This document shows, piece by piece, positions 5,644 through 63,214 of a stretch of 64,000 bases of DNA. The position numbers and the translations under genes are program-made. The stretch comes from Bacteroides ovatus (GTDB lineage: Bacteria > Bacteroidota > Bacteroidia > Bacteroidales > Bacteroidaceae). Position 1 is the stretch's first letter; each line of letters opens with the position of its first letter. A model generated the notes under the pieces. That model had not been told where the DNA came from, ran no database searches, and was given only the letters and a program-made list of their open reading frames with translations. Where the stretch lies: positions 2,604,001 through 2,668,000 of the forward strand of contig NZ_CP012938.1 of NCBI RefSeq assembly GCF_001314995.1, given 5' to 3'.

Positions 5644-5877
5644 AGTAAAATTCGTATAAAAATGGAGTAAGATATTCTACTTCCATAAAGTAATATCTCC
5701 ATAATCTTTATTGTATTTAAGATTATTCAGTGCATAGATTTAAGATTTTCTATGCAGAAAACTAGAATCTTTTATGCACTCAAGTAGTTGTCACCTTACA
5801 ACGGGATAATAGTCACCTTATAGAATGACAAACGTCACTTTATAAGGTGATATTAATCATTCTATAAGGTGACCATC
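5644..5877. repeat. intergenic array with 22-bp periodicity (array A)
   Basis: This is the main content of the 776-bp gap between the channel gene and topB. GTCACCTTA begins at 5790 and 5812, and GTCACTTTA at 5834, exactly 22 bp apart. The inverted form AAGGTGA recurs at 5844-5850 and 5866-5872, again 22 apart. The 17-bp segment 5812-5828 is perfectly inverted at 5857-5873. Just upstream a second word, TATGCA, recurs at 5751 and 5773 (22 bp), with an inverted copy at 5731. A weaker word, AGTAA, recurs at 5644 and 5666. No coding potential was seen. Confidence 0.8.
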
Positions 5878-6105
5878 TATCTCTGAAAGGATGAAAACCA
5901 CTAAAGATACAAAATAAATCAGTAAAAAGCAATAGTAAGATAGGAAATTTGCCTGGAATGCAAACATACTTAATTTATTTCAATACAGCATAATAAAGAG
6001 GCCGCATTCATATCATGCAGATTAAATCTAACCTGCTAATTGCAGCACCTCCATCTCTCACTCTCTTCGTGATATGACGGACTTTTTACTTTTATCCCTT
6101 TTCTA

Positions 6106-8280
6106 TTAGAAATTTTTCCGGAAAGTACATCCATTTCTCCATTCCGAACATCCGTAAGCGGTTTTTCCTTTAATAATAATTCCCTTACCACAAAGCGGAC
6201 ATGGCTGACCTACAAACGTATCTACATCACCTGTAGCAGAAGGAATTGAAGCAGGAGTAGTAACCGGAGCCGGAGAAGGTGCCGAATTAGAACTCACTTC
6301 ACTTACCGCTTTTTCTGTTTTCGGTTTCTTTTCTTTCGGTGCACTCGGTTTACGTTCTCGCTTTTTAGTTTCTTTCTTTTCTTTCTCTTCAGCCTTTGCA
6401 GCTACTGCATCCTGAATAGTAATGCGTCGGTTTGTATTATCAGAAAGTACACTCATCACTATTTCCGAAACCATCTGTTTCAGTTCTTCGAGAAACTGGC
6501 GGGCATCGTATGTCTTCTTTTCAATTTCGCGAAGCTTCTTTTCCCAAATACCTGTCAGTTCCGCCGATTTCAATAATTCTTCGTGAATGAGCTGCACCAA
6601 CTCCACTCCTGTCGGGGTGGCAATCAGGTTCTTTCTCTCCTTACGGATATAATTTCGTTTGAACAGTGTTTCAATGATGGCAGCACGGGTAGACGGCCGG
6701 CCGATACCATTCTCCTTCAAGGCATCACGAAGTTCATCATTATCCACCAGTTTTCCGGCTGTTTCCATTGCACGGAGCAGTGTCGCTTCGGTATAAGGTC
6801 TGGGCGGCTGTGTCCATTTCTCGTTCAAGTCGGGAATGTGAGGACCACTTTCACCCTTCACAAAGGTAGGGAGTACATTTTCATCCTCTTCCTCTTTTTC
6901 TTCAGTAGGATCTTTTACGTCCTTTGCAAACACGACACGCCATCCCGGTTCCAGAATTTGTTTTCCGGTTACCCGGAATTCTATCTTATCCACTTCTCCC
7001 ATGACGGTAGTAGTAGAAATCTTACAGTCCGGATAGAATACGGCTATAAAACGACGGGCTATCAAGTCATAGACACGACGTTCCATATCCGTCAGGTTTT
7101 GAGCATAGACTCCGGTGGGGATAATGGCGTGGTGATCCGTCACCTTCGAGTTGTCAAATACCTTTTTCGATTTAGGAAGTGTAGTGCCGGCTAACGGAGC
7201 CGTCAAGACTTCGTAATCACGGAGTCCTTTCAGGATAGCGGGACATTTCGGGTAAATATCATCACTCAAGAAAGTGGTATCGACACGCGGATAGGTAGCT
7301 ACCTTCTTCTCATAAAGAGACTGGATTAGTTTCAGCGTTTCATCAGCCGAATAAGCGAATTTCTTGTTACATTCTACCTGAAGAGAAGTCAAGTCGAACA
7401 AACGTGGGGCGAACTCTCTCCCATCTTTCTTGCCAACACTAGTGACTACAAACGGAAGATCCTTTATGCGTTCTACCAATGCCTCGCCTTCTTCCCGGTT
7501 AGCGATAGGGTCGATACCCGGATTATCTATTTTCTTTTTTCCACCGTTCTTTTCTTCTTCCGCAGCAATTTCTTCATCACTTTTGCGGATAAGTGCGGAA
7601 AAAGTGGTATCCCGATAGTTGGTTTTCAGTTCCCAGTATTGCTTGGGTTCGAAATTGGCTATTTCCAACTGACGGTTGACAATCAGTGCCAGAGTCGGTG
7701 TCTGTACACGACCGATAGAGAGTACCTGTTTATTTTGACCGTATTTAATGGTGTAAAGACGGGTGGCGTTCATTCCTAATAGCCAGTCACCCATCGCACG
7801 AGAAAGTCCGGCTTCATAGAGTGACTGAAAATCTGTCTGATCTTTCAGCTTCGCAAACCCTTCCCGGATAGCTTCTTCTGTCAATGAAGAAATCCACAGA
7901 CGTTTCACCGGACAGCGTGCACCTGCTTTCTGCATCACCCAACGCTGAATCAATTCTCCCTCTTGCCCGGCATCACCGCAGTTGATGATTTCATCTGCGT
8001 TCTGCATCAGTCCCTCGATAATGTGGAATTGTTTTTCGTAGGTAGGATTCTCTATCAACTTGATGCCGAAACGTGGAGGAATCATTGGCAGGCTACCTAA
8101 ATTCCATGATTTCCAGTTAGGCGTGTATTCATGCGGCTCTTTCAGGGTACAAAGATGCCCGAATGTCCAGGTCACCTGGTATCCGTTTCCTTCTATATAT
8201 CCTTCTTTTCTGGTATGAGCGCCGAGTACTTCGGCTATATCGCGTGCTACTGATGGCTTTTCGGCTATGCAAACTATCAT
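6106..8280 (-). CDS. topB: DNA topoisomerase III (type IA)
   Basis: A 724-residue type IA topoisomerase. The TOPRIM domain starts at residue 1 (CIAEKPSVARDIAEVLGA) and includes the acidic DAGQEGELI motif near residue 103. The active-site tyrosine lies in ATYPRVDTTFLSDD, near residue 336. The conserved TEATLLRAME and GIGRPSTRA motifs are present. A low-complexity Lys/Glu/Pro linker (about 635-690) leads to one four-Cys zinc ribbon at the C terminus. It relaxes or decatenates single-strand-containing DNA. The gene appears monocistronic, with a TAACTTTG box upstream. Confidence 0.95.
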   Translation of the reverse strand: MIVCIAEKPSVARDIAEVLGAHTRKEGYIEGNGYQVTWTFGHLCTLKEPHEYTPNWKSWNLGSLPMIPPRFGIKLIENPTYEKQFHIIEGLMQNADEIINCGDAGQEGELIQRWVMQKAGARCPVKRLWISSLTEEAIREGFAKLKDQTDFQSLYEAGLSRAMGDWLLGMNATRLYTIKYGQNKQVLSIGRVQTPTLALIVNRQLEIANFEPKQYWELKTNYRDTTFSALIRKSDEEIAAEEEKNGGKKKIDNPGIDPIANREEGEALVERIKDLPFVVTSVGKKDGREFAPRLFDLTSLQVECNKKFAYSADETLKLIQSLYEKKVATYPRVDTTFLSDDIYPKCPAILKGLRDYEVLTAPLAGTTLPKSKKVFDNSKVTDHHAIIPTGVYAQNLTDMERRVYDLIARRFIAVFYPDCKISTTTVMGEVDKIEFRVTGKQILEPGWRVVFAKDVKDPTEEKEEEDENVLPTFVKGESGPHIPDLNEKWTQPPRPYTEATLLRAMETAGKLVDNDELRDALKENGIGRPSTRAAIIETLFKRNYIRKERKNLIATPTGVELVQLIHEELLKSAELTGIWEKKLREIEKKTYDARQFLEELKQMVSEIVMSVLSDNTNRRITIQDAVAAKAEEKEKKETKKRERKPSAPKEKKPKTEKAVSEVSSNSAPSPAPVTTPASIPSATGDVDTFVGQPCPLCGKGIIIKGKTAYGCSEWRNGCTFRKNF

Positions 8281-8313
8281 TTTTTCTCTTCTTGTTTTTA
8301 CACTAACAGCTTA

Positions 8314-8321
8314 CAAAGTTA
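8314..8321 (-). promoter_or_regulatory. candidate -7 box for topB
   Basis: Minus-strand TAACTTTG lies 34 bp upstream of the start codon. No clear TTTG -33 element was seen. Confidence 0.45.
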
Positions 8322-8478
8322 CACGATTATTTCTCATTGACCGCATGAAGAGAGAAAAAAGTCCATAAAGGCATAGATCGGAGAAAGAATGATAACTTCA
8401 ACTGAATAGTTTTCAAGATGTACCGCTTTCTCCTTTTTTATACCACTCCATTTGATGTTTGATAAGCTATATAATGAA

Positions 8479-8521
8479 GCTGCACAGTTCTACACACGAT
8501 ATGTGCATAGCTCTGTGCAGC
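8479..8521. terminator. intergenic hairpin downstream of the EEP gene
   Basis: GCTGCACAG (8479-8487) is perfectly inverted at 8513-8521. There is no strong U tract, so it may be a terminator or only a 3'-end stem. Confidence 0.45.
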
Positions 8522-8536
8522 CTCTCTATAACGTTT

Positions 8537-10096
8537 CTATTTTAAACCGGAGAAATCACAAAAAAGAGGATAATGTGTAGAAGCAACGGTCACATCTACT
8601 CCCGACAGACTTTCTATCACATCAGCCTGTGTCACATTTACGTTGTGACTCTTCAAAGACACGATAAAGTCAAGGCGACGTTTCTTACCACTGACTTCGG
8701 TAGACTTATCGGCACTAAGAAGATTCCAGTTACTCTTCACCATTTGGAAAAATTCGCTTTCCAAGTCGCCCTCATTGAAGTATCCTAACAAGAATGCAGG
8801 TTTATTATAGGCAGACAGTTTCGTTTCTAACGTTTGAAGGGCCTCTATACGCTTTGCCATATCCGTATCGAAGTTGGTACTGGCTACTACAAACTTTTCA
8901 TATTCCACTACCATGGCTGCACGCATCTCGCTCTTTCCCGCCATTTGGTATCTGTCTACACTTACAGGTTCTTCTTTTGTCAGTATACCAACACCGAATT
9001 CACCGCCTTTATAATCAATGACTTTAGCAAAATAATCATGCATATTTGCTTTCTGTGCCAGTACGTTCAACTGGTCGATACCTTCCGAACGTTCCGTCTC
9101 CTTATCCAGTCCCTGCAAGCAGACAATATCCGCATTCATTTTGGCGATAATACGTCCTGTCCGGTCGTAATCAATCACGCCATCTGTACCTTTACAATAG
9201 GTCAGGAAATAGTTACCTATGCGCAGGTCACCTTCTGCCTTCGGATATTCTTCAAGTCCGGTCGGCTTCTTAAAATCACAATAAAGTGGATAATGGTCGG
9301 AAGTTATTGCTACGTTGACACCATCCAGGTTGTATATTACATTCGATTTTACCACAGTGGTAGGTGGAGTTTTCAAAGTAACGACAAAATCAATCCGTTT
9401 GGTAGCCTGTCCGGTAGGAAAAGTGTTTTCTGTAGAACTGACAACCTCCCATTCTTTCTTCAGTTCCGTAAAGAATGTGCCATTCATCAAGTCCTCGTTA
9501 AAGTCACCAGCCATATAAACCACTTTATTATATGTTTTGGCAAGGTCTGTGAGCTGTTTTGCAGATTCAACTCTATTATTCTCTTCCAAAGCCAAGTGGG
9601 TGGAGATAACTACATAGTTCTCAAATTCGGCTATGGCAGCAGAACGGAGTTCGGCACCGGGAAGGGGATAAGTCTTCGTGCTGATCGGCGTCCCTTTGAA
9701 CAAAAGGCCATTACCGTATTCACCACCCTGGTAAGCGATTGACTTACTAAAATAGTGATTCATGCCTGTTTTATCCGCCAAGGTTTTCAATTGGTCGACT
9801 TTATTACTGCGGGTAGTCATGTAGTCCACTTCCTGCAGGCAAACGACATCGGGTTCCATTCCGTTGATAACAGCGGCTGTCCTGTCATAATTAATCACGT
9901 CATCGTTACCGGCACAATGCCTTATATTAAAGGTCAACACTCTAAGGTTCCCCTCCCCTTTCGGATAAGTATAGGAAACTTCCTGTTTACCGTAAGGTAT
10001 CATATTATCGAATTTAGAGTTGTCCATGTCGTCGGCACAGGACAAGTTGGCAAACACGGTTGCCAAAAGACATATATAAGAAATCATATTTTTCAT
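8537..10096 (-). CDS. lipoprotein with tandem endonuclease/exonuclease/phosphatase (EEP) domains, second one degenerate
   Basis: A 519-residue lipoprotein (lipobox LSC, Cys20) carrying two homologous EEP-fold domains, about 48-275 and 288-517. The first has the full catalytic set: Asn57, Glu89 (LQEVD), His167 (STHLAL), Asp198 and Asn200 (GDFN), Asp267 and His268 (SDHYP). The second aligns along its whole length but has Phe297, Gly329, Asn408, Tyr439 and Thr507 at five of these positions, so it should be inactive. EEP enzymes cleave phosphodiesters in DNA, phosphoinositides or sphingomyelin, or phosphomonoesters. As the last gene of a SusCD locus it probably prepares the imported ligand at the cell surface; the substrate is unknown. 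Confidence 0.85.
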   Translation of the reverse strand: MKNMISYICLLATVFANLSCADDMDNSKFDNMIPYGKQEVSYTYPKGEGNLRVLTFNIRHCAGNDDVINYDRTAAVINGMEPDVVCLQEVDYMTTRSNKVDQLKTLADKTGMNHYFSKSIAYQGGEYGNGLLFKGTPISTKTYPLPGAELRSAAIAEFENYVVISTHLALEENNRVESAKQLTDLAKTYNKVVYMAGDFNEDLMNGTFFTELKKEWEVVSSTENTFPTGQATKRIDFVVTLKTPPTTVVKSNVIYNLDGVNVAITSDHYPLYCDFKKPTGLEEYPKAEGDLRIGNYFLTYCKGTDGVIDYDRTGRIIAKMNADIVCLQGLDKETERSEGIDQLNVLAQKANMHDYFAKVIDYKGGEFGVGILTKEEPVSVDRYQMAGKSEMRAAMVVEYEKFVVASTNFDTDMAKRIEALQTLETKLSAYNKPAFLLGYFNEGDLESEFFQMVKSNWNLLSADKSTEVSGKKRRLDFIVSLKSHNVNVTQADVIESLSGVDVTVASTHYPLFCDFSGLK

Positions 10097-10120
10097 AAGA
10101 ATTTATATTTCTGAATCTAA

Positions 10121-11878
10121 TTAATTAAAGTTCAATCCGTCATTCCAACCGGGATTCTGTGTTATCACACCATTGGACAAAGTACGTTCGCTGATAGGAA
10201 CAGGGTACAAATAATCTCTGTCTTCATTCCATTTCTTGGTAATCAGACTATGACAGATGATATAACCACTTTCGCCATTCGACAAGCGAATCAGCTCGCC
10301 GATCTCTAAATATAAAGGTACATTTCCGGCAGGTTTTGTTCCTACGTAGAAACAGACATCATCCGTACCGTCTTTATCTAAATCGTAAGTTCCGGGCCCG
10401 GGAACATAGATTCCCAGCAGATCGTTCTCAAATAGTTTACCTTCTTTCCAACGCATGATGTCGTAATAACGGAAACCCTCCATTACCAGTTCGATGGTTC
10501 GTTCGCGACGGATTTCAAGGATTACTCCCTGATTGGCTCCTTTCACATTCGGATAACCTGTGGCGGCACTCATCAAATACGGGTCGGGTTTTGAATTTGC
10601 CAGTTCCATATCCAGGTTAGTCATTCCTACCCTGTCTCTAAGTAATTTAATAGATTTATTGATGTCGGCTTGCTTCAAAGTGCCTAGTTCGGCTTTTGCT
10701 TCTGCAAAATTCAGATACACCTCTGCCGTGCGGAACAGGGGAATATCGTTGCACGATTTATTATATTCATCGTAGTTAGCCGTCATCGAATATTTTATCA
10801 GGTGATATCCGGTCATGGTATAAGCCAGGTTCGGGGCTTCTTTCTTTGTACTTCCGATTCTCGTATATCCAGGGGTACGGATGGTTTGTGCCAGTCGCGG
10901 ATCCCGATTCTGACATTCTTGTTCGAATGTCATCGTTTCATAACCGGCTTTATCCGTGAAACGGCTTCCGTCCGCCATCAGATAAGAATTCACTATCTTC
11001 TTGTTCATTCCCGGACGTCCCATTGTGGTGGAGTTCTCATAATTCTGCACATTATGAAGCACAGAAAGAGAAGCTTCATAGTCACGCCCGAAAATCACTT
11101 CATCCGCTTGTAGATTTATGGAAGCGAATAAATCCCTGTAAGGTGTGCTGCCCGATTTATAGAGTGTATATCCGCTTTCGTTCATAAAGGTTTCAGAAGC
11201 CGAGACACAAGCATTCAAGTATTTTTCATAATCCTCCAGTCCATGATATTTACGGAAAGTACCCTCAAACAGGCAGACACGGGATTTCAGAGCCAATGCC
11301 GTCCACCGGGTCAGTACATACGCATTCTTCGTTTTCGGAAGATTGGCTATCGCAAAATCCAGGTCCTCCAGCATTTTCTGCATGACAAATTCACGTGAGT
11401 CCCGGGCTTTATACAATTCGGGATCATCCGAGTCGAGTGCTTTGTCATACCAGGGAATATCGCCATATCTCTTCACCTTCTCAAAGTAGAAATAAGCTCT
11501 GAAAAAACGGGCAACACCATCGTAACGGTTACGGACATTCACTTCCGTGCAGTTATGGGAATACTGCAGATAGAAATTAATATCGCGAAGTGCCGTAAAA
11601 TTCCAACCGTTTCCTTCATCGGGTATGATGCGCTGTCCGGACATTTCGAGCATCAAGTCGGACTTGACAATCAAATCGGACGACTCGGAATAAATATCGA
11701 CAGCGGACGGAACCAGATTGTTATAAAACTGATTCGTAAATAATCGCAACTCATCTTCAGTCTTGAAATATACATCCGGATACAGGCGGTCTTTGGGTGT
11801 CTTATCCAACCAATCGTCGCAAGACACGAAAGATATCGCCAACGCGAACAACCAAGATACTATATAAACAGGTTTCAT
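10121..11878 (-). CDS. RagB/SusD family nutrient-binding outer-membrane lipoprotein
   Basis: 585 residues with a lipoprotein signal (FVSC, Cys20) followed by DDWLDKTPKD, the usual start of mature SusD proteins. The C-terminal third has the family hallmark IRRERTIELVMEGFRYYDIMRWKEG and the ending NPGWNDGLNF. It should form the lid and ligand-binding partner of the SusC transporter encoded 19 bp upstream. No glycoside hydrolase is encoded nearby, so the ligand may not be a glycan; the EEP lipoprotein downstream suggests a phosphate-ester ligand (inference). Confidence 0.92.
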   Translation of the reverse strand: MKPVYIVSWLFALAISFVSCDDWLDKTPKDRLYPDVYFKTEDELRLFTNQFYNNLVPSAVDIYSESSDLIVKSDLMLEMSGQRIIPDEGNGWNFTALRDINFYLQYSHNCTEVNVRNRYDGVARFFRAYFYFEKVKRYGDIPWYDKALDSDDPELYKARDSREFVMQKMLEDLDFAIANLPKTKNAYVLTRWTALALKSRVCLFEGTFRKYHGLEDYEKYLNACVSASETFMNESGYTLYKSGSTPYRDLFASINLQADEVIFGRDYEASLSVLHNVQNYENSTTMGRPGMNKKIVNSYLMADGSRFTDKAGYETMTFEQECQNRDPRLAQTIRTPGYTRIGSTKKEAPNLAYTMTGYHLIKYSMTANYDEYNKSCNDIPLFRTAEVYLNFAEAKAELGTLKQADINKSIKLLRDRVGMTNLDMELANSKPDPYLMSAATGYPNVKGANQGVILEIRRERTIELVMEGFRYYDIMRWKEGKLFENDLLGIYVPGPGTYDLDKDGTDDVCFYVGTKPAGNVPLYLEIGELIRLSNGESGYIICHSLITKKWNEDRDYLYPVPISERTLSNGVITQNPGWNDGLNFN

Positions 11879-11897
11879 AATTCAAATATTAGTTAGT

Positions 11898-14800
11898 TTA
11901 AAAAGTTACGTTCACTCCAAAAGAATAGGTCTTTGACCAGGGATACAACTTTGCGTTACCATTTGCCGATTGGATGGAATTTTCTGCCGATGCTTGTTCC
12001 GGATCAATGTAGTCGCTCTTTAGCGGAGAGAAGGTAAACAGATTCTCACCACTGAAATAGATATGCAGGCGTTCTATCTTTACCTTCTTCGTCCATACGG
12101 CGGGAATCGTATAGCCTACTGTGATATTCTTCACTCTGCAATAAGCCAGATTCTGCAAATAACGGTCGTTCACCACTCCCAAAGAACGGTTATTGCCGAG
12201 GGAAAGATACCCTATCGGACGTGGGAAATAAGCATCGGGATTTTCCGGGCTCCATACCTGGCTCAAGAAATCGCGTGGAATGAACGATGAATACGGACGA
12301 GCGTATGGTCCCCAAAAGAATACAGAATTAGTACCCGGATACCAGTCTTGATGTCCTACTCCCTGAAGATAGATGGAGAAGTCGAATCCATACCAGTCGA
12401 ATCCACCTTGAATACTGTATGTATAGCGCGGCAATGAGTTTCCGATTATTTTACGGTCGCCCGGATCATCTGCCGTGTTCGAGCCGGAAGATATTGTATG
12501 GTCGCCGTCTAAATCAACAAATTTCATATCACCGGCGTGAAGTCCCGGATTCACCTGCGCTGTATTGATAACGAAGTTGACTGCTGTTTGGTCGACGTTA
12601 TAGTTTGCCGCTTCTTCGTCTGTTCTGAAAAGTCCGTCTACTACATATCCCCAGATATCTCCCAATTTCTGACCTACATAATAATCACTCAATATCTTGG
12701 AAGGATTATCGAATTTGGTTATTTCCGATGTATTATCTGCCAAGCCTACGGACAGGTTATAACGGAAAGGTTTGTTTGCCAGTTTGAAAGCATCATTCCA
12801 GGTCAGCATCAATTCCCAGCCTTTGGTACGCAAGTTGGCTGCATTTTGCTTGGGCTCGTTGGCTCCATAAGCACCGGGAAGCTTTTTGCCGGAAGTTTGC
12901 ATACCTTTAGTATCACGAACATAGGCATCGGCAGTCAGGTTCAGACGGTTGTTCAGGAATCCGAGATCGAGTCCTACGTTCCAAGTCGAAACGGTTTCCC
13001 AGGTCAGGTCGGCGGAATTCGGGTCGGAGACACTTGCATAAGAGCCTTTCTTCTGATCGCCAAAGATATAATTCATTGTACCGTTGGTATTAATGGTTTG
13101 GATATAATCGTAGTATCCTACCTGCTGATTTCCCAACGAACCGTATGACAGACGCAATTTCACATTATCAATATTCTTCTTTAAATTCCCGAAAAACGGT
13201 TCTTCACTGATTCTCCATCCTACGGAAGCCGAGGGGAAGAAACCGAAACGGTGTCCGCTTCTGAAACGTGAACTTCCGTCATAGCGTCCACTCGTCTCAA
13301 ATAGGTAACGACCTCCTTTATAGGAGTAATTAAGACGATAAAATGCTCCCAAAAGCGCATATTCATTTTGTCCGCCGGACATAGTCATCGCATCTCCGAC
13401 TGCCAGATTTAAGTCATTCAAGTCATCGGAGAGCAAGCCCTGGCGGGAGACTTTGATATCTTTCAGGCGCTTGGTTTCATAATTGTAACCTGCCATGATT
13501 TTTATCTGATGGTCGGCAATATCCAGCATATAATCACCATAAACATTGAAAGCCTGATACCAATGATTGGTCTGCGTTTCTTTCAACTGATTCACACCGC
13601 TTCCGGTAGTCAGATAGGATATCTCACCCGGATACTTAGAATATGGTACATTTACTGTTCTGTTCATGGTCTGATAGTTATAGTGCAGGTAGCTGTAATT
13701 TGCACGGACATTCAGGTTCTTCATTACATTGAAACTTGCTTCGAAAGTCGTGGAAAACTCATACCGCTGGTCTTCATTCTTATGTTTTCCATAAGCAAGA
13801 ATAGCTCCCATGCCATCCAAAACAGCAGAATTGCTCAACGAAGTCAGATACACCGCACTGCCATCCGGATTAATGGGTACAAAGCTCGCCAGTGCATGAT
13901 TCACCGCAGTATTGAAGTTGTTATTAATACCCGATAATCCCGGATAAGAGTAACTATTATAATGGTACTTCGTGTTATTGCTGATTGTCAGTCGTGGAGT
14001 GATCTTTGCCGAGATTTTACTTCTGAAATTATACACCTTGTATTTATCAGGATTCTGTCTGAAGATACCCGTTTGGTCAACTGTATTTCCTGATAAATAA
14101 TAGTTCAACTTTTCATTTCCTCCACTGACACTGATATTGTGCTCCCACATCGGTCTGTTTTTACGATAAAGATAATTATACCAGTCGAAGTTACCGTAAT
14201 AGACGTATGTATCTCTTCCGTCACGTTGGTCGGTAACTACCCAGGGACGTTCGGGATTCTCCGTTTTATCATTCCGGCGCAACCAAAGCTGGCGGTAGTC
14301 TTCTTCCGTATAGTTGGTATAAGGCTTTCCGTTATAATTGGTATAAAACAAGTCGTTGATGCCTGCCGAATAATATCCCCTGGTTTCAAAATCAGTAGAA
14401 GTCGTCTGATTACTCCATGAATATCTTCCATCATACGAAACGGTAGTCTTGCGGGCGGAGCCTTCCTTGGTAGTCACGAGGATAACACCATAAGAAGCAC
14501 GAGCCCCGTAAATAGCGGCCGAAGATGCATCTTTTAATACGGAAATGGAAGCGATGTCATTCGGATTCAAGCGGTCGATATCCCCTTCTATTCCGTCAAT
14601 CAGCACTAATGGCGATGCATTGCCACTGATAGAATTCACACCACGGATATTGATAGTTGCCGAAGCTCCCGGATACCCAGACCCAAAAGTTACATTCATA
14701 TTGGGCACAGTCCCTTGCAACATCTGTGAGGCTCTCGGCACGGGTCTGTCTTCCATCGCTTTACTGTCTACTACTGCAACAGCTCCCGTCAGGTTTATTT

Positions 14801-15419
14801 TCTTTTGAGTACCATAGCCTACCACCACCACTTCTTCCAGCGTAGCCGTATCCTCCCGGAGTATTACTCTCGAAGATTTCTGCAAGTCGGAGACTTTAAT
14901 TTCTTTCTTCTCAAATCCAATATAGGACACAACGACTAGGGCATTGGCCGGAACCGAGGATAATGTAAATTCACCATCCAAATTCGTGATCGTTCCCATA
15001 GACTGTCCCATCACCTGTACACTGGCACCGATTACCGGGTCACCGTTCACATCGACCACTTTCCCCGTAACCCGATGTAAAGGCTGCGATGGGACGGCAG
15101 TAGTATTACGTTCTGTTTTCTTTGTGATGATAATCATCCGGTTTTGTAGTTTATACTCTACATCCTTATCCAAAACAGTAGCAAGCACATTATTAACAGT
15201 TGCCTGCTGAAAGGAAGCCGTTATCTTCTTGTTTTCATTAACCTCGTCCGTTTTATAGATAATGGAGTACTTCGTCTGCCGCTCAACTTCTTTCAATACC
15301 GCCTTCAGCGGCTCATTTTTAAAGACCTTTGTAACTGTCTGCGCCCGTAGTGACTGGACGCCCAAACACAACAGAATCAGGAGAAACAGTCTAAAAAATG
15401 AGTTTCTTCGGTCATTCAT
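11898..15419 (-). CDS. SusC/RagA TonB-linked outer-membrane protein with N-terminal STN signalling domain
   Basis: 1173 residues. After a signal peptide (ends LRAQ) comes a secretin/TonB N-terminal (STN) domain at about 30-105, then a carboxypeptidase-regulatory-like domain at about 117-190 (GDPVIGASVQV...YIGFEKKEI). The TonB box/plug follows (VVVVGYGTQKKINLTGAV), then a 22-strand barrel ending in Phe. The STN domain is the part that contacts FecR anti-sigma factors, and a FecR/ECF-sigma pair lies just upstream, so import and induction are coupled. A terminator-like hairpin separates this gene from the preceding lipoprotein gene, so it likely has its own sigma-dependent promoter. Confidence 0.94.
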   Translation of the reverse strand: MNDRRNSFFRLFLLILLCLGVQSLRAQTVTKVFKNEPLKAVLKEVERQTKYSIIYKTDEVNENKKITASFQQATVNNVLATVLDKDVEYKLQNRMIIITKKTERNTTAVPSQPLHRVTGKVVDVNGDPVIGASVQVMGQSMGTITNLDGEFTLSSVPANALVVVSYIGFEKKEIKVSDLQKSSRVILREDTATLEEVVVVGYGTQKKINLTGAVAVVDSKAMEDRPVPRASQMLQGTVPNMNVTFGSGYPGASATINIRGVNSISGNASPLVLIDGIEGDIDRLNPNDIASISVLKDASSAAIYGARASYGVILVTTKEGSARKTTVSYDGRYSWSNQTTSTDFETRGYYSAGINDLFYTNYNGKPYTNYTEEDYRQLWLRRNDKTENPERPWVVTDQRDGRDTYVYYGNFDWYNYLYRKNRPMWEHNISVSGGNEKLNYYLSGNTVDQTGIFRQNPDKYKVYNFRSKISAKITPRLTISNNTKYHYNSYSYPGLSGINNNFNTAVNHALASFVPINPDGSAVYLTSLSNSAVLDGMGAILAYGKHKNEDQRYEFSTTFEASFNVMKNLNVRANYSYLHYNYQTMNRTVNVPYSKYPGEISYLTTGSGVNQLKETQTNHWYQAFNVYGDYMLDIADHQIKIMAGYNYETKRLKDIKVSRQGLLSDDLNDLNLAVGDAMTMSGGQNEYALLGAFYRLNYSYKGGRYLFETSGRYDGSSRFRSGHRFGFFPSASVGWRISEEPFFGNLKKNIDNVKLRLSYGSLGNQQVGYYDYIQTINTNGTMNYIFGDQKKGSYASVSDPNSADLTWETVSTWNVGLDLGFLNNRLNLTADAYVRDTKGMQTSGKKLPGAYGANEPKQNAANLRTKGWELMLTWNDAFKLANKPFRYNLSVGLADNTSEITKFDNPSKILSDYYVGQKLGDIWGYVVDGLFRTDEEAANYNVDQTAVNFVINTAQVNPGLHAGDMKFVDLDGDHTISSGSNTADDPGDRKIIGNSLPRYTYSIQGGFDWYGFDFSIYLQGVGHQDWYPGTNSVFFWGPYARPYSSFIPRDFLSQVWSPENPDAYFPRPIGYLSLGNNRSLGVVNDRYLQNLAYCRVKNITVGYTIPAVWTKKVKIERLHIYFSGENLFTFSPLKSDYIDPEQASAENSIQSANGNAKLYPWSKTYSFGVNVTF

Positions 15420-15554
15420 AATTTTATCAATTAAGTTGTTACAATTTAAAGTGATTTATATTTAAGGATATATATATTCGATTGTAGTATTTCTCTGAAT
15501 CGCTTCTATAAGATAAAACAACTCATCATTCATCTGCCCAACCCCTATAAAAGC

Positions 15555-15581
15555 AAAAAAGCAGATTATTTCTGCTTTTTT
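15555..15581. terminator. intrinsic terminator between the repeat lipoprotein gene and susC
   Basis: A perfect 11-bp stem, AAAAAAGCAGA / TCTGCTTTTTT, with a 5-nt loop, symmetrical for both strands. It lies just after the repeat lipoprotein gene and 136 bp before the susC start. Confidence 0.8.
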
Positions 15582-15598
15582 GTATCGACTGGCTTTAT

Positions 15599-16744
15599 TT
15601 ATTCAGACCACTGGAATATCGGATAACCGTTCGTTCCTTTTTTCCAAAGATTCGGATTCCAGGCTACGATGATATTCCCCAGTTCTTCCGCTGACTTCGC
15701 CACTCCGTGAAAAGTTGTTCCTGTGGCTGATGATTCGTCTGATGCGGTAATCGTTTTTTCATTCACTTTGAGTACAATACTTTCGCAGGCGTAACAATTC
15801 TCATAACTGCCTAATGAAGCAGAGACCCCAACAATGCGTCCTACGGTTGACGAAGCATCCACTCCGGTCAAGTTACTCCATGCTGCGCTGTTCTTGATAG
15901 CAATGTCACAACTTTTGTCAATTTGTCCCAAAATACCGCCTACGCCTCCTTTAGTTGCACTGACTGCTCCGTATGCATAGCAGTTCTCAATAAATCCGCC
16001 GACACCTACTTTCCGTCCAGCAATACCGCCTGCTTTTCCGCCACTTGCCGCCCGATCGCTGACCGTTGCATTTGAATAACAGTTCTTTATATAACTTTCC
16101 TGCCCATCATAGCTATTTGCCAATACACCGGCTATTCCACCTGCCGCACCAGAACCGATTACTTCGCCGGTCGTATAGCAGTTCACAATTCTTCCTGTCT
16201 TATTTCCGTTACCTTTATCTTTAAGTCCGAGATAACCGGTAATAATTCCAATCCCCTGCCGAGCAGATGATACAGAAGCATTCACAAAGCCCACATTACG
16301 ACAATCACCGCACAATACTCCGAAGAAACTTGGATAATCACCGGCAGAACATTTGAAGTTCTTAATGACATGGCTGTCTCCGTCAAAATCTATTTCATAA
16401 GGAAAATCACCGGAACCATTCAACGACTGCCAGTCATCAATGCCTGCCATATCAATATCAGCACCTAACTGGAAATAAACTTTCATTCCCGATTTCAACA
16501 CACTACGCATATTTCTGATCTGCGTAGCATTCATTATCATATAAGGTTTGCTGTCCGTTCCGTTTCCTTTCTCGAACAAACCGCCGGCACCGTCTCCGTC
16601 ACCATCACCATTTCCGTCATCCGTTTCCGTTTTTTCGAACGGAACACGAGTGTATGAGTCCAAAGGATTAGGGTCAGAACACGAGATTGCAACAGATGCC
16701 ATCATCAACAGCATCCCAAATCTGCCTATTTGAGTAATATTCAT
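15599..16744 (-). CDS. lipoprotein with GLUG-like glycine-rich repeats
   Basis: 381 residues with a lipoprotein signal (VAISC, Cys22), an Asp/Gly-rich linker (about 42-56), and then repeated units built around NCYTTGEV, NCYSNATV, NCYAYGAV and NCYACESI. Each is preceded by GGIAG/GGILG-type turns, the pattern of GLUG repeats that form a beta-helix. Such proteins are often surface-exposed adhesins or binding proteins. It lies between fecR and susC, so it may help capture the locus ligand. No catalytic residues were recognised. Confidence 0.72.
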   Translation of the reverse strand: MNITQIGRFGMLLMMASVAISCSDPNPLDSYTRVPFEKTETDDGNGDGDGDGAGGLFEKGNGTDSKPYMIMNATQIRNMRSVLKSGMKVYFQLGADIDMAGIDDWQSLNGSGDFPYEIDFDGDSHVIKNFKCSAGDYPSFFGVLCGDCRNVGFVNASVSSARQGIGIITGYLGLKDKGNGNKTGRIVNCYTTGEVIGSGAAGGIAGVLANSYDGQESYIKNCYSNATVSDRAASGGKAGGIAGRKVGVGGFIENCYAYGAVSATKGGVGGILGQIDKSCDIAIKNSAAWSNLTGVDASSTVGRIVGVSASLGSYENCYACESIVLKVNEKTITASDESSATGTTFHGVAKSAEELGNIIVAWNPNLWKKGTNGYPIFQWSE

Positions 16745-16776
16745 ACTTGATTTCTTTACAATTAAACATTGAGTTC

Positions 16777-17769
16777 TTATCTTATATATATATCCTTTTC
16801 CTTATATTCTACTTTGATAGGTATGATTTCTTTCAGTGCATCCATTACATCTACGATTGTCTCTTTATTACGCAACGAAACACGGAACTTCATATCGCCC
16901 AATTTCTCCGACTCTAACTGAATATGCACATCGTACTGACGTGAAAGCTTCTTCACCATCTCTCCTAACGTAATGTCATCATATTCAATCCTGTCTTCCG
17001 CCCACGCCATTGCCTGACGTGCATTTACTTTCTTTCCTTTCAACTGTCTTGTTACCAAATCCAAAGAAATAGATTCTCCCGGAGACATCCGTATCTGATC
17101 TTCTTTATAATTCAACTCTACTGCTCCTTCCAGCAAGGTGGTTGTTATATACGAATCGTCTGAATAGGCAGATACATTAAATTTCGTACCTTTTACCACC
17201 ACATCATATTCATGCGTCTTTACTGTAAATTGCTTTCCATTCTGTTTAGTCACCTCAAAATACCCCTCTCCTTCCAGCTCCACCACCCGGTCGGCTGTAT
17301 TAAAATGATTCGAATATCTTAATACGGAACCTGCATTCAGCCATACAACTGTACCATCCGAAAGCTGTATCTTACTCTTATCCCCCAACGGAGCTTCGCA
17401 AACAAAGAAAGTCTTTGGCGTAAACAAGTAAATAGCCTGTTGAATACCCAACGTAGTACCGACAATCAATGCTATAACGGCAGCAATACGGGCTATCTTC
17501 CATATACCAGGTTTCGACTTTTTCAATAACGGAACAATCGCTTCCTGCGTATACATCTTATGCTTCAAAGCTTCCCATTCGGCATCTGTCTCCGAATCGG
17601 TATTCCGGTGATTCATCCATTCTCTCTCCCATTGACGGAACCTGCCATAGCCACCTTCCACCTGTTCGATATATTCGAACAGATTCTTTTCGTCAGCTCT
17701 TGATATGCGTCCTTCAAAATACTGAATAGCCAATTCACGGATATTTTCTTCTTGCTTCATGATATTCAC
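16777..17769 (-). CDS. FecR-family anti-sigma factor
   Basis: 330 residues. The N-terminal cytoplasmic segment (about 1-85) is followed by one transmembrane helix at about 90-112 (IARIAAVIALIVGTTLGI), then the periplasmic FecR domain (LSDGTVVWLNAGSVLRYSNHF, about 135-230) and a C-terminal DUF4974-like tail that ends IKVEYKEKDIYIR. It should hold the neighbouring ECF sigma factor until the STN domain of the SusC protein signals ligand binding. ATG codons at 17769 and 17760 are both possible starts. Confidence 0.92.
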   Translation of the reverse strand: MNIMKQEENIRELAIQYFEGRISRADEKNLFEYIEQVEGGYGRFRQWEREWMNHRNTDSETDAEWEALKHKMYTQEAIVPLLKKSKPGIWKIARIAAVIALIVGTTLGIQQAIYLFTPKTFFVCEAPLGDKSKIQLSDGTVVWLNAGSVLRYSNHFNTADRVVELEGEGYFEVTKQNGKQFTVKTHEYDVVVKGTKFNVSAYSDDSYITTTLLEGAVELNYKEDQIRMSPGESISLDLVTRQLKGKKVNARQAMAWAEDRIEYDDITLGEMVKKLSRQYDVHIQLESEKLGDMKFRVSLRNKETIVDVMDALKEIIPIKVEYKEKDIYIR

Positions 17770-17823
17770 TTTCTATAAGATGTAACAACCCATATTTCTT
17801 TTACCCAACCTCTGAAACAAAAA

Positions 17824-17852
17824 AAGCAGAAAAAACTTTCCTGCTTCTTATT
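17824..17852 (-). terminator. terminator between the sigma and fecR genes
   Basis: On the minus strand AAGCAG, an 11-nt loop, CTGCTT and a T run lie 27-55 bp after the sigma-factor stop codon. Read-through into fecR may be partial. Confidence 0.65.
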
Positions 17853-17878
17853 CTTTATATAACCGAAGAGTGCATTGA

Positions 17879-18499
17879 TTATTTCTGCTCCATCATCAGC
17901 CATGCCAATATCACTATATACAGATCCACCGGATAGCGTTCGCTAAAATGCCGGGAGAAATATTGCAAAGCCCTTGCTATATGCTTTTCGACTGCTGTGG
18001 TAGATATTTGTAGTTTTTCTGCGATTTCCCTGTTCTTCAATCCCCTGAAACGGCTTAACAAAAAAATCTCACGCGACCTGTCCGGCAACTGATTAAGCAC
18101 AAGGGCAATCTGCTCCTGCAATTCCTTGTATAATAATTTATGTTCTGCATCCTGCATAAAGTCTGCATAGTAGAGTCTTTCTTCCCCATCCACCTTTGCC
18201 AAGTACTCCACCCGGTACTTTTCAACAATCGAGCGATGCTTCAGATAATTTAGACATCCATTGCGGACCATAGAAAAAAGAAGAGAAGTAAGTGAGAAGA
18301 CAGATAACATTTCGCGACGTTCCCAAAATCGTAAGAAACACTCTTGAATAATATCACGAACCGTTTCTTCATCTTCTATAAAACGAATAGCATACCCTCG
18401 CAAACGAGGATAATAACTCTTGAACAGAAACTCAAAAGCTGCATTATTGCCTCTTTTCAGCTCTCCCAATAATTGTTTATCATCCATGAAATCTACCAT
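17879..18499 (-). CDS. ECF-type RNA polymerase sigma-70 factor
   Basis: 206 residues. Region 2 spans about 20-90 (FEFLFKSYYPRLRGYAIRFI, then DIIQECFLRFWERR). Region 4 spans about 130-185 (LPDRSREIFLLSRFRGLKNREIAEKLQISTTAVEKHIARAL), a clear helix-turn-helix. With the FecR gene and the STN-bearing SusC it forms a trans-envelope induction relay. Met1 (18499) and Met5 (18487) are both possible starts; the nearby TACCTTTG box leaves only a short leader. Confidence 0.94.
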   Translation of the reverse strand: MVDFMDDKQLLGELKRGNNAAFEFLFKSYYPRLRGYAIRFIEDEETVRDIIQECFLRFWERREMLSVFSLTSLLFSMVRNGCLNYLKHRSIVEKYRVEYLAKVDGEERLYYADFMQDAEHKLLYKELQEQIALVLNQLPDRSREIFLLSRFRGLKNREIAEKLQISTTAVEKHIARALQYFSRHFSERYPVDLYIVILAWLMMEQK

Positions 18500-31220: not shown

Positions 31221-31324
31221 ACAAACAGGTGTAGATATCTCTAATAAGTTTGCGATGTCTTTACCCTCACACCCTGTTTAATAATTACTTACTGGAGAAT
31301 TTTCGGTTGACGGCAGTTCCACTT

Positions 31325-31456
31325 TATTTCATTACTTGGGACAAAGTGTTTCGCACCGAGAAACGAAATGTTTCAAGTAATGAAACGAAGTGTTTCACAC
31401 CGAGAAACAAAATGTTTCGCTACTTGAAACTAAGTGTTTACCTATATGAACAAGCC
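31325..31456. repeat. six-unit intergenic array with exact 22-bp period (array B)
   Basis: Main content of the 596-bp gap between cobC and btuF. TGTTT begins at 31347, 31369, 31391, 31413 and 31435, and GAAAC at 31360, 31382, 31404 and 31426, all exactly 22 bp apart. A degenerate first unit starts at 31325. Each unit can form a small GTTTC...GAAAC hairpin. Units 2 and 4 (from 31347) share CACCGAG-type loops. Units 1 and 5 have a TACTTG loop, whose inverse (CAAGTA) is in unit 3. The rest of the gap (31457-31744) shows nothing I recognise. Confidence 0.88.
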
Positions 31457-31744
31457 ATTATCTGCATAGATTCTGCAAATAACTACATACTTTCGATGGA
31501 TTTACTATATCCTTATAAACTTCAGGTTTAACCTATCAACCAAATCAAGACGAGACAGGGTGAGAGTGCGAGGATAAAAAGCATCTCCAAATTTTTTCTG
31601 AATCTTTAAGGTGCAGAAATTCTCTGAAGTAATCAGCAGACCGATAAACTTAATCCATTCTGCCTGCCTAAGGGGAGGATACATAAATAGGAATGATTTC
31701 GGAGAAAATGCAATAAAAAAAGAAAGAATATCTCCAAAGATACT

Positions 31745-31752: not shown

Positions 31753-31816
31753 CCCCGCAATGTCAATCTTCGGACACCGAAAATTATTTATTCATTTAAA
31801 AGATACACGAATAAAG

Positions 31817-32950
31817 ATGAAATCTCCTATTTCAATCCTCACATGGCTATGTCTTCTTTTCCTGGCTAGTTGTATATCCAACAAGAAGACTTCTCTCGAG
31901 GCTTTCAAACAGGATGTCTATACACCTGAATATGCTACCGGATTCAAGATTCTGGGTGCGGACAATGCCGCCAGCACACTTATTCAGGTATCCAATCCAT
32001 GGCAGGGAGCCAAGGACGTAAAAATGTCTTATTTCATTTCACGCAACGGTGAACAGGCACCTGCCGGATTCAACGGGCCTACCATCCCTGCCGGAGCGAA
32101 ACGTATCGTATGTATGGCTTCTTCCTACATCGCCATGTTCGACGCTCTAGGTCAAGTGGACAAAATTGTCGGAGTATCGGGCATCGACTATGTATCCAAT
32201 CCATATATTCTTGCACACAAAGATTCTATCAAGGACATGGGTCCCGAAATGAATTATGAATTATTATTGGGACTGAAACCGGATGTTGTCCTGTTATACG
32301 GTATCGGAGATGCGCAAACTGCCGTAACAGACAAACTGAAAGAACTGTATATACCTTATATGTATGTAGGAGAATATTTGGAGGAATCACCGCTTGGTAA
32401 AGCCGAATGGCTGGTAGCTCTTGCCGAATTAACAGACAGCAGGGAAAAAGGCATCGAAATATTCCGTGAAATCCCTAAACGTTATCAAGTTTTGAAAGCG
32501 CTCACCGAATCGGTAGAGCAACGTCCTACCGTTATGCTCAATACCCCGTGGAACGACAGTTGGGTGATGCCTTCCACACAAAGTTATATGGCACAATTGG
32601 TAACTGATGCAGGTGCGGATTACATCTACAAAGAAAACACTTCTAACAGTTCCACTCCCATCGGACTGGAAACAGCTTACAAACTGATACAAAAGGCCGA
32701 CTACTGGATTAATGTAGGCATGGCTTCTACGTTGGATGAATTAAAGACGGTCAATCCTAAATTTGTAGACGCCAAAGCTGTACGCGAAAAAACTGTTTAC
32801 AACAACAATTTACGAACAACACCGACAGGAGGTAATGACTACTGGGAATCTGCAGTGGTACGTCCCGACGTCGTATTGCGTGATCTGATTCATATCTTTC
32901 ACCCCGAACTCGTATCCGATTCACTTTACTATTACAGACACCTGGAATGA
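31817..32950 (+). CDS. btuF: cobalamin ABC transporter substrate-binding lipoprotein
   Basis: About 377 residues from MKSPISILTWLC, a lipoprotein signal (LASC). The class III solute-binding fold is recognisable by AKRIVCMASSYIAMFDALGQ (about residue 95), IVGVSGIDYVSNP and GLKPDVVLLYG. The function as cobalamin binder is inferred from the following BtuC/BtuD genes and the flanking cobalamin genes; iron-complex binding is the alternative for this fold. It overlaps btuC by 4 nt. Confidence 0.85.
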   Translation: MKSPISILTWLCLLFLASCISNKKTSLEAFKQDVYTPEYATGFKILGADNAASTLIQVSNPWQGAKDVKMSYFISRNGEQAPAGFNGPTIPAGAKRIVCMASSYIAMFDALGQVDKIVGVSGIDYVSNPYILAHKDSIKDMGPEMNYELLLGLKPDVVLLYGIGDAQTAVTDKLKELYIPYMYVGEYLEESPLGKAEWLVALAELTDSREKGIEIFREIPKRYQVLKALTESVEQRPTVMLNTPWNDSWVMPSTQSYMAQLVTDAGADYIYKENTSNSSTPIGLETAYKLIQKADYWINVGMASTLDELKTVNPKFVDAKAVREKTVYNNNLRTTPTGGNDYWESAVVRPDVVLRDLIHIFHPELVSDSLYYYRHLE

Positions 32951-60931: not shown

Positions 60932-60937
60932 CAAAAC

Positions 60938-60968
60938 TTGGATTATTTTTTGATAAATCTTATATTTG
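60938..60968 (+). promoter_or_regulatory. promoter of the gntR gene
   Basis: TTG (60938-60940), a 20-nt spacer and TATATTTG (60961-60968); supports the ATG at 60995. Confidence 0.65.
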
Positions 60969-60994
60969 CTGAAAATAAACCAATCAGAATAGAT

Positions 60995-61723: not shown

Positions 61724-61728
61724 ACCAT

Positions 61729-61740
61729 ATGTTCATACAT
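61729..61740. promoter_or_regulatory. proposed GntR operator, copy 3
   Basis: Third exact ATGTTCATACAT, 6 bp after the gntR stop codon. Its position downstream of the gene is unexpected for simple repression. Confidence 0.5.
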
Positions 61741-61832
61741 ATATAATATAAGGAGGCTATTTTAGAAGTTGAAATCTCTATCTTTCCTTTAAAATAACCT
61801 CTTTATATCATCTCTCTTTCCATAATCATGTC

Positions 61833-62656
61833 CTACCCGTCATTTATTATCGAACTACCATTAGAGCATCCGGCAAGAATCCGATCCAGACTTTCATCCA
61901 CAACACCTATCATCTGAAGTTTGGATAATAAATGATAGTAGGAAGTTTTTCCTACTCCTTCTATTCTCAACAGACTTTTCCAACCTCTTCCCGATACTAT
62001 ATCCAACAAATCTTTCACCGTTCGAACATCTTGATTATACAAGATATTAGCCAACCGGGTATCAGCTACTTTACGAACAGGCAATTGAAGTATCCACTCC
62101 TCCTGCCCAACATTTATATTCTTATTATTGTCTACCAAGGATAAAAAACGAGCATCGATAGCACGCTTTCGATAAGTAGCCAATATATCTTTTTCAGTTT
62201 CAACCCTTTAAGTATAGAGTTATACATTTGCAATGTCTTCCCATAGGTAATTCGATGCCGATCAGCCACTTTCGCTACTGATTCTCCTGTAGAAATTGAA
62301 TAGAAGATATCGCGGGTAACAGGGTGAAGAATCAATGCTGACAGTTCACGAATGATTATTTCATATAGCGGTTTACAAGTCGTCTGTGTTCTCAATACAT
62401 ATAGTAGATCATCGTATTTGGAAATGATAAAGTCCCGTTCCAGTTTCTTTTCTTCTACGATTTTAGAAAGGTAACCTGCTTCTAAACCAAGTCTTTTGTG
62501 AGCTTCCAGATAAGCATCCAAACTCTCATCATCCAAAAACAACTGATCGTCGATTCGGGAACTCGTAATGTATCCAAGATTTGCCCAATTCTTTAAAATA
62601 GCTTCTTGGATGTCGTGTCTTTCGGACATCTGTTTTGTTGTGAGCCAATTTGACAT
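61833..62656 (-). pseudogene. multi-domain helix-turn-helix protein with alpha-CTD-like C-terminus, frameshifted
   Basis: Two overlapping frames make one apparent protein of about 274 residues. Frame 1 (start 62656) has an excisionase/MerR-like helix-turn-helix (LTTKQMSERHDIQEAILKNW, about 5-55) and a later sigma-region-4-like helix pair (VAKVADRHRITYGKTLQMYN, about 133-152). Frame 2 has no ATG near its beginning and carries VADTRLANILYNQDVRTVKD and IEGVGKTSYYHLLSKL, like the helix-hairpin-helix of the RNA polymerase alpha C-terminal domain. Inserting one base in the GGG or AAAAA runs near 62186-62205 rejoins them. This could be a mutation, a sequencing error or a programmed -1 shift. The ATG directly abuts the U tract of a terminator. 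Confidence 0.7.
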
Positions 62657-62696
62657 AAAAAAACGGAACTAGATTAATAATATCAACTAGTTCCGT
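62657..62696 (-). terminator. intrinsic terminator of the structured RNA
   Basis: On the minus strand ACGGAACTAG (62696-62687) pairs perfectly with CTAGTTCCGT (62672-62663), followed by seven T, then at once the ATG of the HTH gene. Its first arm overlaps another hairpin (62693-62720), so the two stems exclude each other. Confidence 0.82.
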
Positions 62697-62903
62697 ACCT
62701 TTTATTATAAAAGAGTACGGAGCTGCCACAATCCCGCAAACAGGAGGTAGTAGCGGCTACCTTTCAGACACGGGCAGACAGCCCGTACCCTATGAGAAGT
62801 CATAGAAGTACAGGCGTCTCCCGGTGTCTGAAAAAAAATCCGCTACGATTTCCTGTTCACCGAGGAAACGCACAATCGCATACCACAAAGGCATGCTACG
62901 TTC
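62657..62903 (-). ncRNA. structured RNA of about 245 nt with own promoter and terminator (unidentified; 6S-like or attenuator leader)
   Basis: Nested, collinear pairings form one long rod: CAGGA/TCCTG (62741-62745 with 62851-62855), GTAGCGG/CCGCTAC (62750-62756 with 62840-62846), TTTCAGACAC/GTGTCTGAAA (62762-62771 with 62824-62833), an 8-bp helix (62781-62788 with 62808-62815, one G-U on the minus strand), and CTATGA/TCATAG (62790-62795 with 62800-62805) closed by a 4-nt loop. Flanking hairpins lie at 62693-62720 and around TTTCCT/AGGAAA (62850-62870). Promoter, GC-rich rod and terminator indicate a discrete transcript. I do not recognise it as tmRNA, RNase P or SRP RNA. Confidence 0.75.
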
Positions 62904-62909
62904 CAATGA

Positions 62910-62941
62910 CAAAGGTACAAATACTTTTCGGAAAATAACAA
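62910..62941 (-). promoter_or_regulatory. promoter of the structured RNA
   Basis: Minus-strand CTTG (TTG) near 62941, a 21-nt spacer and TACCTTTG (62917-62910); start site expected near 62903. Confidence 0.7.
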
Positions 62942-63089
62942 GAGAGAGTTATAAATGTTTAGGAAAGAAAATGAATGATGATTGTATAATTAAAGCGTAT
63001 GTATATAAAAAGGCAGGCTTCAATAAGTTATCTTATTCATATAAGAAACCACTCTACAATTAAAGCACCTCTCTCTTACATAAACTAGC

Positions 63090-63097
63090 TACTTTTG
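63090..63097 (+). promoter_or_regulatory. candidate -7 box for the HU-like gene
   Basis: TACTTTTG; the start would fall near 63104, which places array C inside the leader RNA. Confidence 0.5.
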
Positions 63098-63104
63098 TAA
63101 CACA

Positions 63105-63214
63105 CATCAATTCGTTCCACAAATATGGAACGAAACAATAACAGATGTGGAACTAAAGGGAAACAACTGTGGAACTAAAAGTCAACAGTTGTAGAACGAA
63201 TTAACAGTAACTAT
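63105..63214. repeat. 22-bp-period array in the leader of the HU-like gene (array C)
   Basis: GGAAC begins at 63127, 63149 and 63171, and AGAAC at 63193, exactly 22 bp apart. TTCGTTCC (63111-63118) is perfectly inverted at 63127-63134, and AATTCGTTC (63109-63117) is inverted at 63194-63202. Accessory words ACAACTGT and ACAGTTGT also alternate in orientation. Confidence 0.82.

Follow-up and report, generated by a model that had tools for sequence, protein, structure and literature searches.

A stretch of 64,000 nucleotides of the Bacteroides ovatus genome (contig NZ_CP012938.1, positions 2,604,001 to 2,668,000; hereafter, the window) contains three intergenic arrays, denoted A, B and C, which consist of short units repeated with a step of 22 bp (Table 1). 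Arrays of this kind are dispersed through the noncoding DNA of this genome (the host genome), use many different words, and occupy the leaders of most genes of the HU-HIG family (PF18291) whose products lack a Gly-rich tail. The 22-bp arrays probably serve as binding sites for HU-wHTH proteins, that is, for members of the HU-HIG family with a C-terminal winged helix-turn-helix (wHTH) domain. The initial annotation of the window, made from its sequence alone, had mentioned a protein that reads shape or spacing; a protein family combining HU with a winged helix is now tied to the arrays through gene position and shared vocabulary.

A 22-bp step in the intergenic DNA of Bacteroides

The three arrays had been noticed as possible members of a family of elements recognizable by their step. 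The host genome was therefore scanned without the use of sequence similarity, by comparing each position i with position i+k and counting matches over 44 positions within intergenic gaps (threshold 27/44), in a sample that comprised the window and 60 stretches of 20 kb at even spacing (1.264 Mb of 6.47 Mb). Below, L with a number denotes a locus (a sequence stretch) and G with a number a genome. All three arrays of the window are recovered, and the sample contains 29 intergenic islands at lag 22, including two pairs that overlap or touch, compared with 2, 5, 5 and 0 islands at lags 20, 21, 23 and 24, respectively. The arrays of the window are thus not the only cases, and scaling up yields roughly 150 arrays for the whole host genome. 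The lag-22 islands are about 3-6 units long, and the longer lags 44 and 66 produce 17 and 8 islands. With the threshold raised to 28/44, 25 noncoding islands are found at lag 22 vs 4 coding ones, and dinucleotide shuffles yield none. The repeated unit is dyad-symmetric (p<=0.05, column permutation) in 24/29 islands at lag 22 and in 4/5 at lag 23, vs 0/5 at lag 21; a dyad-symmetric unit of 22 bp implies two dyads 11 bp apart. The islands are distributed among convergent, tandem and divergent gaps (5/16/8) close to the expectation from gap length (4.5/15.2/9.2). The next highest short lag is 14, with 12 AT-rich islands of which two are dyad-symmetric. These appear to represent a separate class of AT-rich intergenic repeats of 7 or 14 bp, mostly without dyads, with words such as ACTTAAT and TTTTTAA (examples in Table 1).

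The same step is found in two other Bacteroides genomes, G043 and G059, where 27.0 and 25.3 kb of noncoding DNA contain 9 and 11 lag-22 islands, respectively, vs 0-2 islands at each of lags 20, 21, 23 and 24; the words AACTAGTT and CCGCGG of G059 were not noticed in the host sample, as judged informally. As originally surmised, the host sample and two more Bacteroides thus contain a family of intergenic elements whose definition lies in the step and not in the sequence. Thirteen stretches from other Bacteroidota families (27.8 kb noncoding) contain a single lag-22 island, which is an 11-bp repeat. None was found in four 50-kb pieces of Escherichia coli K-12 (21.2 kb noncoding). In 119 GTDB stretches chosen by the GTTTC pattern described below, with the GTTTC array masked, there are 12, 6, 2, 4 and 6 islands at lags 22, 21, 23, 24 and 14. 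A near-versus-far test gave 42 lag-22 islands on the near side, where loci with two anchors are counted twice and 16 same-vocabulary matches are included, and 0 on the far side, which comprises only ~3.4 kb of noncoding DNA, so that the difference outside the HU set is only suggestive.

Arrays upstream of HU-HIG genes without a Gly-rich tail

Array C forms the leader of a gene of the HU-HIG family, ending ~20 bp upstream of the start codon. The protein encoded by this gene scores 129.4 bits against PF18291 (cut-off 26.2), and the host genome contains 34 matches to this family, 28 of them above 50 bits (the window gene and 27 others). Residues 139-198 are predicted to form helices and strands in the order H-H-H-beta-beta, with block means of the predicted local distance difference test (pLDDT) of 83-90 over residues 141-199; the HU part is modelled with low confidence, but Foldseek still ranks HU-type chains first (E>0.001). 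The Foldseek matches comprise HU/IHF and winged-helix proteins, all with E>0.001, among them DIP2311 and the centromere protein AspA (root-mean-square deviations of 1.3 over 62 columns and 1.9 over 58, respectively); the best one is the solved structure of Bacteroides vulgatus BVU_2165 (4fmr, E 1.1e-3). As modelled, the protein agrees with the description of HU-HIG proteins, which consist of an HU fold and a wHTH, immunoglobulin-like or Gly-rich C-terminus.

A lag-22 island (>=27/44) lies within 400 bp upstream of 11 of the 28 host HU-HIG genes, and each of the other lags from 12 to 39 occurs at most twice. Such islands precede 17/792 control genes, or 16/343 when only genes with a free upstream stretch of 100 bp or more are counted (Fisher test, 1e-10 and 3e-7), the control set still including the HU-HIG genes within the sample. 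The association follows the protein class: arrays precede 11/13 HU-HIG genes without a Gly-rich GEAPDPAA-like tail and 0/15 genes with such a tail (p 3.6e-6); the tails were assigned with a text pattern once the arrays were known. The two exceptions without a Gly-rich tail are L421, with 24/44 matches and a long palindrome, and L437, with 31/44 at lag 23. In relatives and at one host paralog, an upstream array was found at 17/17 anchored HU-HIG loci (16 distinct places), the nearest ones 4-128 bp off, with at least five clearly different leader words: GTTCCAC, ACTATAG, TTCGTCTG, TTTCCAC and GTTAGAC. These loci derive from 29 fetched with the window gene, 12 of which were unusable; because the query included array C, some of the 17 may have been found through the array.

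Leaders and unlinked arrays share their words

Vocabularies of individual HU-HIG leaders recur in unlinked arrays within the sampled fifth of the host genome, from which these matches were drawn: those of L413 in L084, L416 in L030, L418 in L101, L420 in array A and L085, L432 in L106, and L437 in L032. The leader at L437 and its match at L032 both have a step of 23. A seventh vocabulary shared in trans is that of array C, which has a second host copy at L309. Array A is carried by an element of ~240 bp that is present in seven copies in the host genome (the window copy and L292-L297), one of which (L293) itself serves as leader to an HU-HIG gene. The A elements, which occur in both orientations, are copies of the L420 leader. 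In the relative G012, the CGTCTGAC vocabulary forms islands at 9/10 fetched places, and at one of these the island lies 70 bp upstream of the start codon in an HU-HIG gene similar to that at L418.

Leaders and dispersed arrays also change together between species. The ratio GAACTAA:GAACGAA[ACG] is 0:8 in two leaders and 1:6 in three dispersed arrays of G029. By comparison, the leaders of the host and G012 have 5:1, and ten dispersed arrays from the host, G012, G043, G009 and G058 have 24:7. Similarly, TCTAAC:TGGAAC is 3:1 in the leader and 8:0 in two dispersed arrays of G030. Hence, in G029 and G030, the leader and the dispersed arrays share the same letter changes relative to the host. On the protein side, the putative recognition helix LTGHDKKRA, or a near form, pairs with ACTATAG in five genomes, LTGRNKKVA with GAAC(T/G)AA in three, and LTGLSRLKA with CGTCTGA in two.

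Several observations weigh against arrays as binding sites of the HU-wHTH proteins. The match between helix and word is not independent evidence, since an orthologous protein and its leader descend together, and at L449 of G012 a helix of the CGTCTGA type occurs with ACTATAG present besides CGTCTGA. Exceptions to the concordance of leaders and dispersed arrays are found in G001, which has both forms in its dispersed arrays (2:4) and in which no leader was seen, and at L490 of G012 (1:2). Three abundant vocabularies lack an HU-HIG neighbour: the listed GTTTC places are all more than 5 kb away from every listed HU-HIG gene, and HU-HIG neighbours within ~2 kb on each side were found at 0/10 TCTCA loci and 0/16 TGGCAC loci. 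Dyad symmetry is not significant in 5/11 leader arrays, and in the leaders of the MARYI/MAMYV subclass (L428, L432 and L342 of G043) lag 21 fits better than 22; together with the step of 23 at L437, this raises the possibility that the step depends on the protein subclass. Replication outside loci picked by HU or by array is thin: 400 kb of unpicked DNA from G043 and G059 contain two HU-HIG genes. The one of the winged-helix type has an array, which scores 29/44 at lag 22 and 34/44 at lag 21, and the one of the FGFDK type has none. Finally, copies of the A element are co-directional with the next gene in 8/15 cases, some of which are orthologous pairs.

Dispersed families, their vocabularies and their turnover

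According to the initial annotation, the arrays of the window share no common sequence. This stands for part of the set only: when 28 host arrays were clustered at z>4, ten remained alone and six fell into pairs, but 12, array B included, formed a superfamily with GTTTC/GTTCC words, which array C enters only at z>3. The pattern GTTTC-N7-GAAAC-N5-GTTTC, with at most one mismatch, has 118 matches in the host genome (61+57) and none when reversed as a control. Across the phylum, it occurs in 7/296 genomes, the host included, with single matches in each of the four outside the genus and one match in total for the reversed control. The vocabularies that were tested form dispersed families: TCTCA/TGAGA, TGGCAC and CGTCTGAC are represented once each in the 29 host islands and by many sites in relatives. 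Flanks of arrays recur in the sampled host DNA in 28/94 cases, duplicates included, and members of the C family have sharp ends and unrelated flanks. A second site of the B element is present in G012 (L114, 1450-1850), where flanks read by eye as inverted repeats hold GTGTAAGATA units spaced 22 bp apart. A search for GTTTC arrays as leaders of another gene class revealed no pattern among 22 loci, some places being counted twice.

Real-looking GTTTC-N7-GAAAC arrays were also seen in GTDB records named Treponema (at least seven loci), Methanolinea, Methanoculleus and Evansella (at least one each); among the matches listed, they are at L197, L262, L268, L190, L205, L226, L228, L253, L263 and L287. 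Transfer, convergence or mis-binning may account for the arrays in these records.

Dispersal of this kind would also be expected if the arrays were selfish elements resembling miniature inverted-repeat transposable elements (MITEs), some of them originating from HU-HIG leaders, which spread between genes and inherited their step by descent and slippage, with no present function. The many matches in single relatives, the sharp ends and unrelated flanks of the C family, the inverted flanks of the G012 B element, the copying of an HU-HIG leader by the A elements in both orientations, and the indifference to gap type are all in line with this scenario. It nonetheless seems unlikely, given that unrelated vocabularies maintain the step of 22 in three Bacteroides, that HU-HIG genes without a Gly-rich tail mostly have arrays, and that differing vocabularies recur within the same orthologous gaps. 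In one such gap, the word is TGGCAC in the host, G012, G009, G058 and G043, GTTTC in G001, TCTCA in G029, CATGTACATG in G025 and CAGACCGTCTG in G042, with no array in G056 and G059 within the DNA retrieved. Moreover, of 14 aligned copies of array A, 13 have no indel in the array columns at 26% divergence, vs 12 and 60 pairwise gap openings in the two flanks; the events are few, and the 14th copy (L298), left out of this comparison, has one inserted base. A Y1 transposase, the only transposase type searched for, is absent.

The proposed growth of arrays by slippage is supported in that orthologous arrays can differ by whole 22-bp units: by one unit between G009 and G058 at one locus, and at another by two units in the host vs four in G043 and G009. 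The one-unit difference, and the fact that dyad units at a step of 22 amount to 11-mers alternating with their reverse complements, would also suit a quirk of Bacteroides replication, in which hairpin-primed template switching with an 11-nt step generates arrays of the form h, rc(h), h, rc(h) (rc, reverse complement) in the absence of selection. We consider this very improbable, as it leaves unexplained both the sharing of vocabularies between unlinked sites and the presence of arrays at HU-HIG genes without a Gly-rich tail and their absence at those with one.

The mirrored unit order noted originally does exist: most C-family arrays read TTCGTTCCA ... TGGAACGAA, the units being inverted on the left side of a central palindrome and direct on its right side. 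Palindromic units and mirrored arrays could alternatively function as RNA, with the units forming hairpins or the whole array one long hairpin in the transcript, and in Rfam array A weakly matches miRNA hairpins, in every case falling far short of the gathering score. However, on the transcribed strand of 16 tandem-gene islands G.T is not significantly in excess of A.C (111 vs 96, p 0.33), and the A family displays no coherent covariation (G.T 29 vs A.C 33). The lack of such an excess points to DNA rather than RNA, and a function in RNA is accordingly a highly doubtful explanation.

A proposed model of array recognition by HU-wHTH proteins

Under the favoured interpretation, that of binding arrays for HU-wHTH proteins, one two-fold symmetric dimer would cover one 22-bp dyad unit. 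The HU body would set the step, which corresponds to two turns of DNA in an underwound state, whereas reading a short word would fall to the winged helix. An 11-bp period is commonly linked to negatively supercoiled DNA in bacteria, according to the sections consulted of PMC4132750. Adjacent dimers may stack along one face of the DNA. In this model, the many vocabularies would arise because each paralog has its own, private word, and slippage would turn the arrays over such that the letters drift and the step is held. Binding to the leader would autoregulate the HU-HIG gene, and the dispersed arrays would be anchor points through which the chromosome is shaped or insulated. The dispersed arrays look architectural because they show no preference for gap type and the A copies none for orientation; the latter also speaks against a simple regulon.

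Relation to known elements

The nearest described element appears to be BrickBuilt, a MITE of Porphyromonas gingivalis that, in the sections consulted of PMC4596501, is present in 19 copies with up to 22.8 non-identical tandem direct repeats of 23 nt between a leader and a tail. Like the 22-bp arrays, it is intergenic, dispersed and tandemly repeated, and long stem-loops are predicted for it (PMC4596501, same sections). The same text describes a single element and names no cognate protein, whereas the arrays reported here are short, have many vocabularies and dyad units, and are linked to HU-HIG genes. BrickBuilt and the 22-bp arrays may nevertheless belong to the same class.

Repetitive extragenic palindromic sequences and bacterial interspersed mosaic elements (REP/BIME), which are associated with the REP-associated tyrosine transposase (RAYT), are dispersed intergenic palindromic units in alternating orientation that are bound by architectural proteins and avoid divergent gaps. 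The 22-bp arrays resemble them as dispersed intergenic palindromic units but do not avoid divergent gaps (8/29), and their unit has no fixed sequence tag. A RAYT/REP system was rejected because no Y1 transposase was found: PF01797 has 0 matches in the host genome, with the same search positive in 5/14 control genomes. In plasmid iterons and in centromere arrays such as those of AspA, sites are spaced about two helical turns apart and bound by a spreading dimer. The arrays share the approximate two-turn spacing, and the fold matches of the winged helix include AspA; they differ in being chromosomal, in an estimated hundred or more copies, with several private vocabularies in one genome and a link to HU fusions. 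Nor do the arrays resemble a clustered regularly interspaced short palindromic repeat (CRISPR) array, the units being short and degenerate with no constant repeat.

To our knowledge, no DNA target is known for the HU-HIG family. In the sections consulted of PMC11035120, the HU-HIG domain is named in an annotation table only. Titles and abstracts retrieved for Bacteroides 22-bp repeats, palindromic intergenic repeats of Bacteroidetes, minisatellites and HU-HIG contain no description of such arrays or of the protein, in agreement with the original impression that no Bacteroides element of this definition has been described.

Features of the window

The coordinates of the arrays and associated features are given in Table 1. 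In the interval from position 5644, where the first annotation began, to array A, only 5722-5789 reaches the threshold (27/44, dyad p 0.08). The right end of the A element carries, on the minus strand from 5932 down to 5902, the promoter-like sequence TTGC-N19-TATCTTTA, which we take to resemble the Bacteroides promoter consensus. Likewise, TACTTTTG upstream of array C fits TAnnTTTG, presumably the consensus of the -7 element; given this match in the sequence, the transcript of the HU-HIG gene might begin at array C or inside it. At the site orthologous to that of array B, no array was found among the 12 relatives used, in which the noncoding DNA amounts to only 319 bp.

Table 1. Arrays, associated features of the window and examples of lag-14 islands
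Feature	Location	Strand	Remarks
A element	5699..5949	-	~240 bp, carries array A
Array A	5777..5879		4-5 dyad-symmetric 22-bp units, GTCACCTTATARRGTGAC vocabulary; lag-22 30/44, dyad p 0.004
Larger B element	31283..31526	+	second site in relative G012
Array B	31332..31456		about 5 units GTTTC-N7-GAAAC-N5; lag-22 31/44, dyad p 0.02
Putative -7 element	63090..63097	+	TACTTTTG, read from sequence
Array C	63111..63215	+	4 units, TTCGTTCCA...TGGAACGAA, HU-HIG gene leader; lag-22 island 63111-63228, 32/44, dyad p 0.026
HU-HIG gene	63236..63835	+	199 aa; HU domain 1-125, predicted C-terminal winged helix 139-198
Lag-14 island	L074 6364-6446		
Lag-14 island	L089 18181-18259		

In the region 6106-18499, a DNA topoisomerase gene adjoins genes for SusD-like proteins and extracytoplasmic function (ECF) sigma factors, and array A lies beyond the 3' end of the topoisomerase gene. 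An array is found within 600 bp of the topoisomerase gene in 3/27 relatives, and five arrays within 700 bp, with words other than that of array A; this frequency is not clearly in excess of the expected background. Downstream of array B are two cobalamin riboswitches (RF00174; 34793-35004 and 37036-37253, 95 and 96 bits), close to which lies a gene for a periplasmic binding protein (31760-32950). At gathering scores, Rfam reports only these two riboswitches and no match at the arrays.

Implications

What appears new is the combination of spacing-defined arrays with putatively paralog-specific words. These findings provide a probable DNA target for a large family of HU fusions that is described in Pfam by its domains only, and they delineate a class of bacterial elements that may escape homology search, since spacing is kept and sequence is not. 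More tentatively, and as a possibility that we hold with clearly less confidence than binding itself, the arrays may constitute a spacing-coded folding layer, in which about a dozen HU-wHTH paralogs with private words form paralog-specific nucleoprotein filaments on >100 arrays. The protein body would then act as the ruler and the winged helix as the reading head; because the words would drift in concert with the protein, each species would have its own folding code, which foreign DNA lacks. Textbook bacteria have one or two HU/IHF proteins. If the arrays do fold or insulate the chromosome, Bacteroides would rely on several paralogous architectural proteins, each sequence-specific, and their words would differ from species to species.

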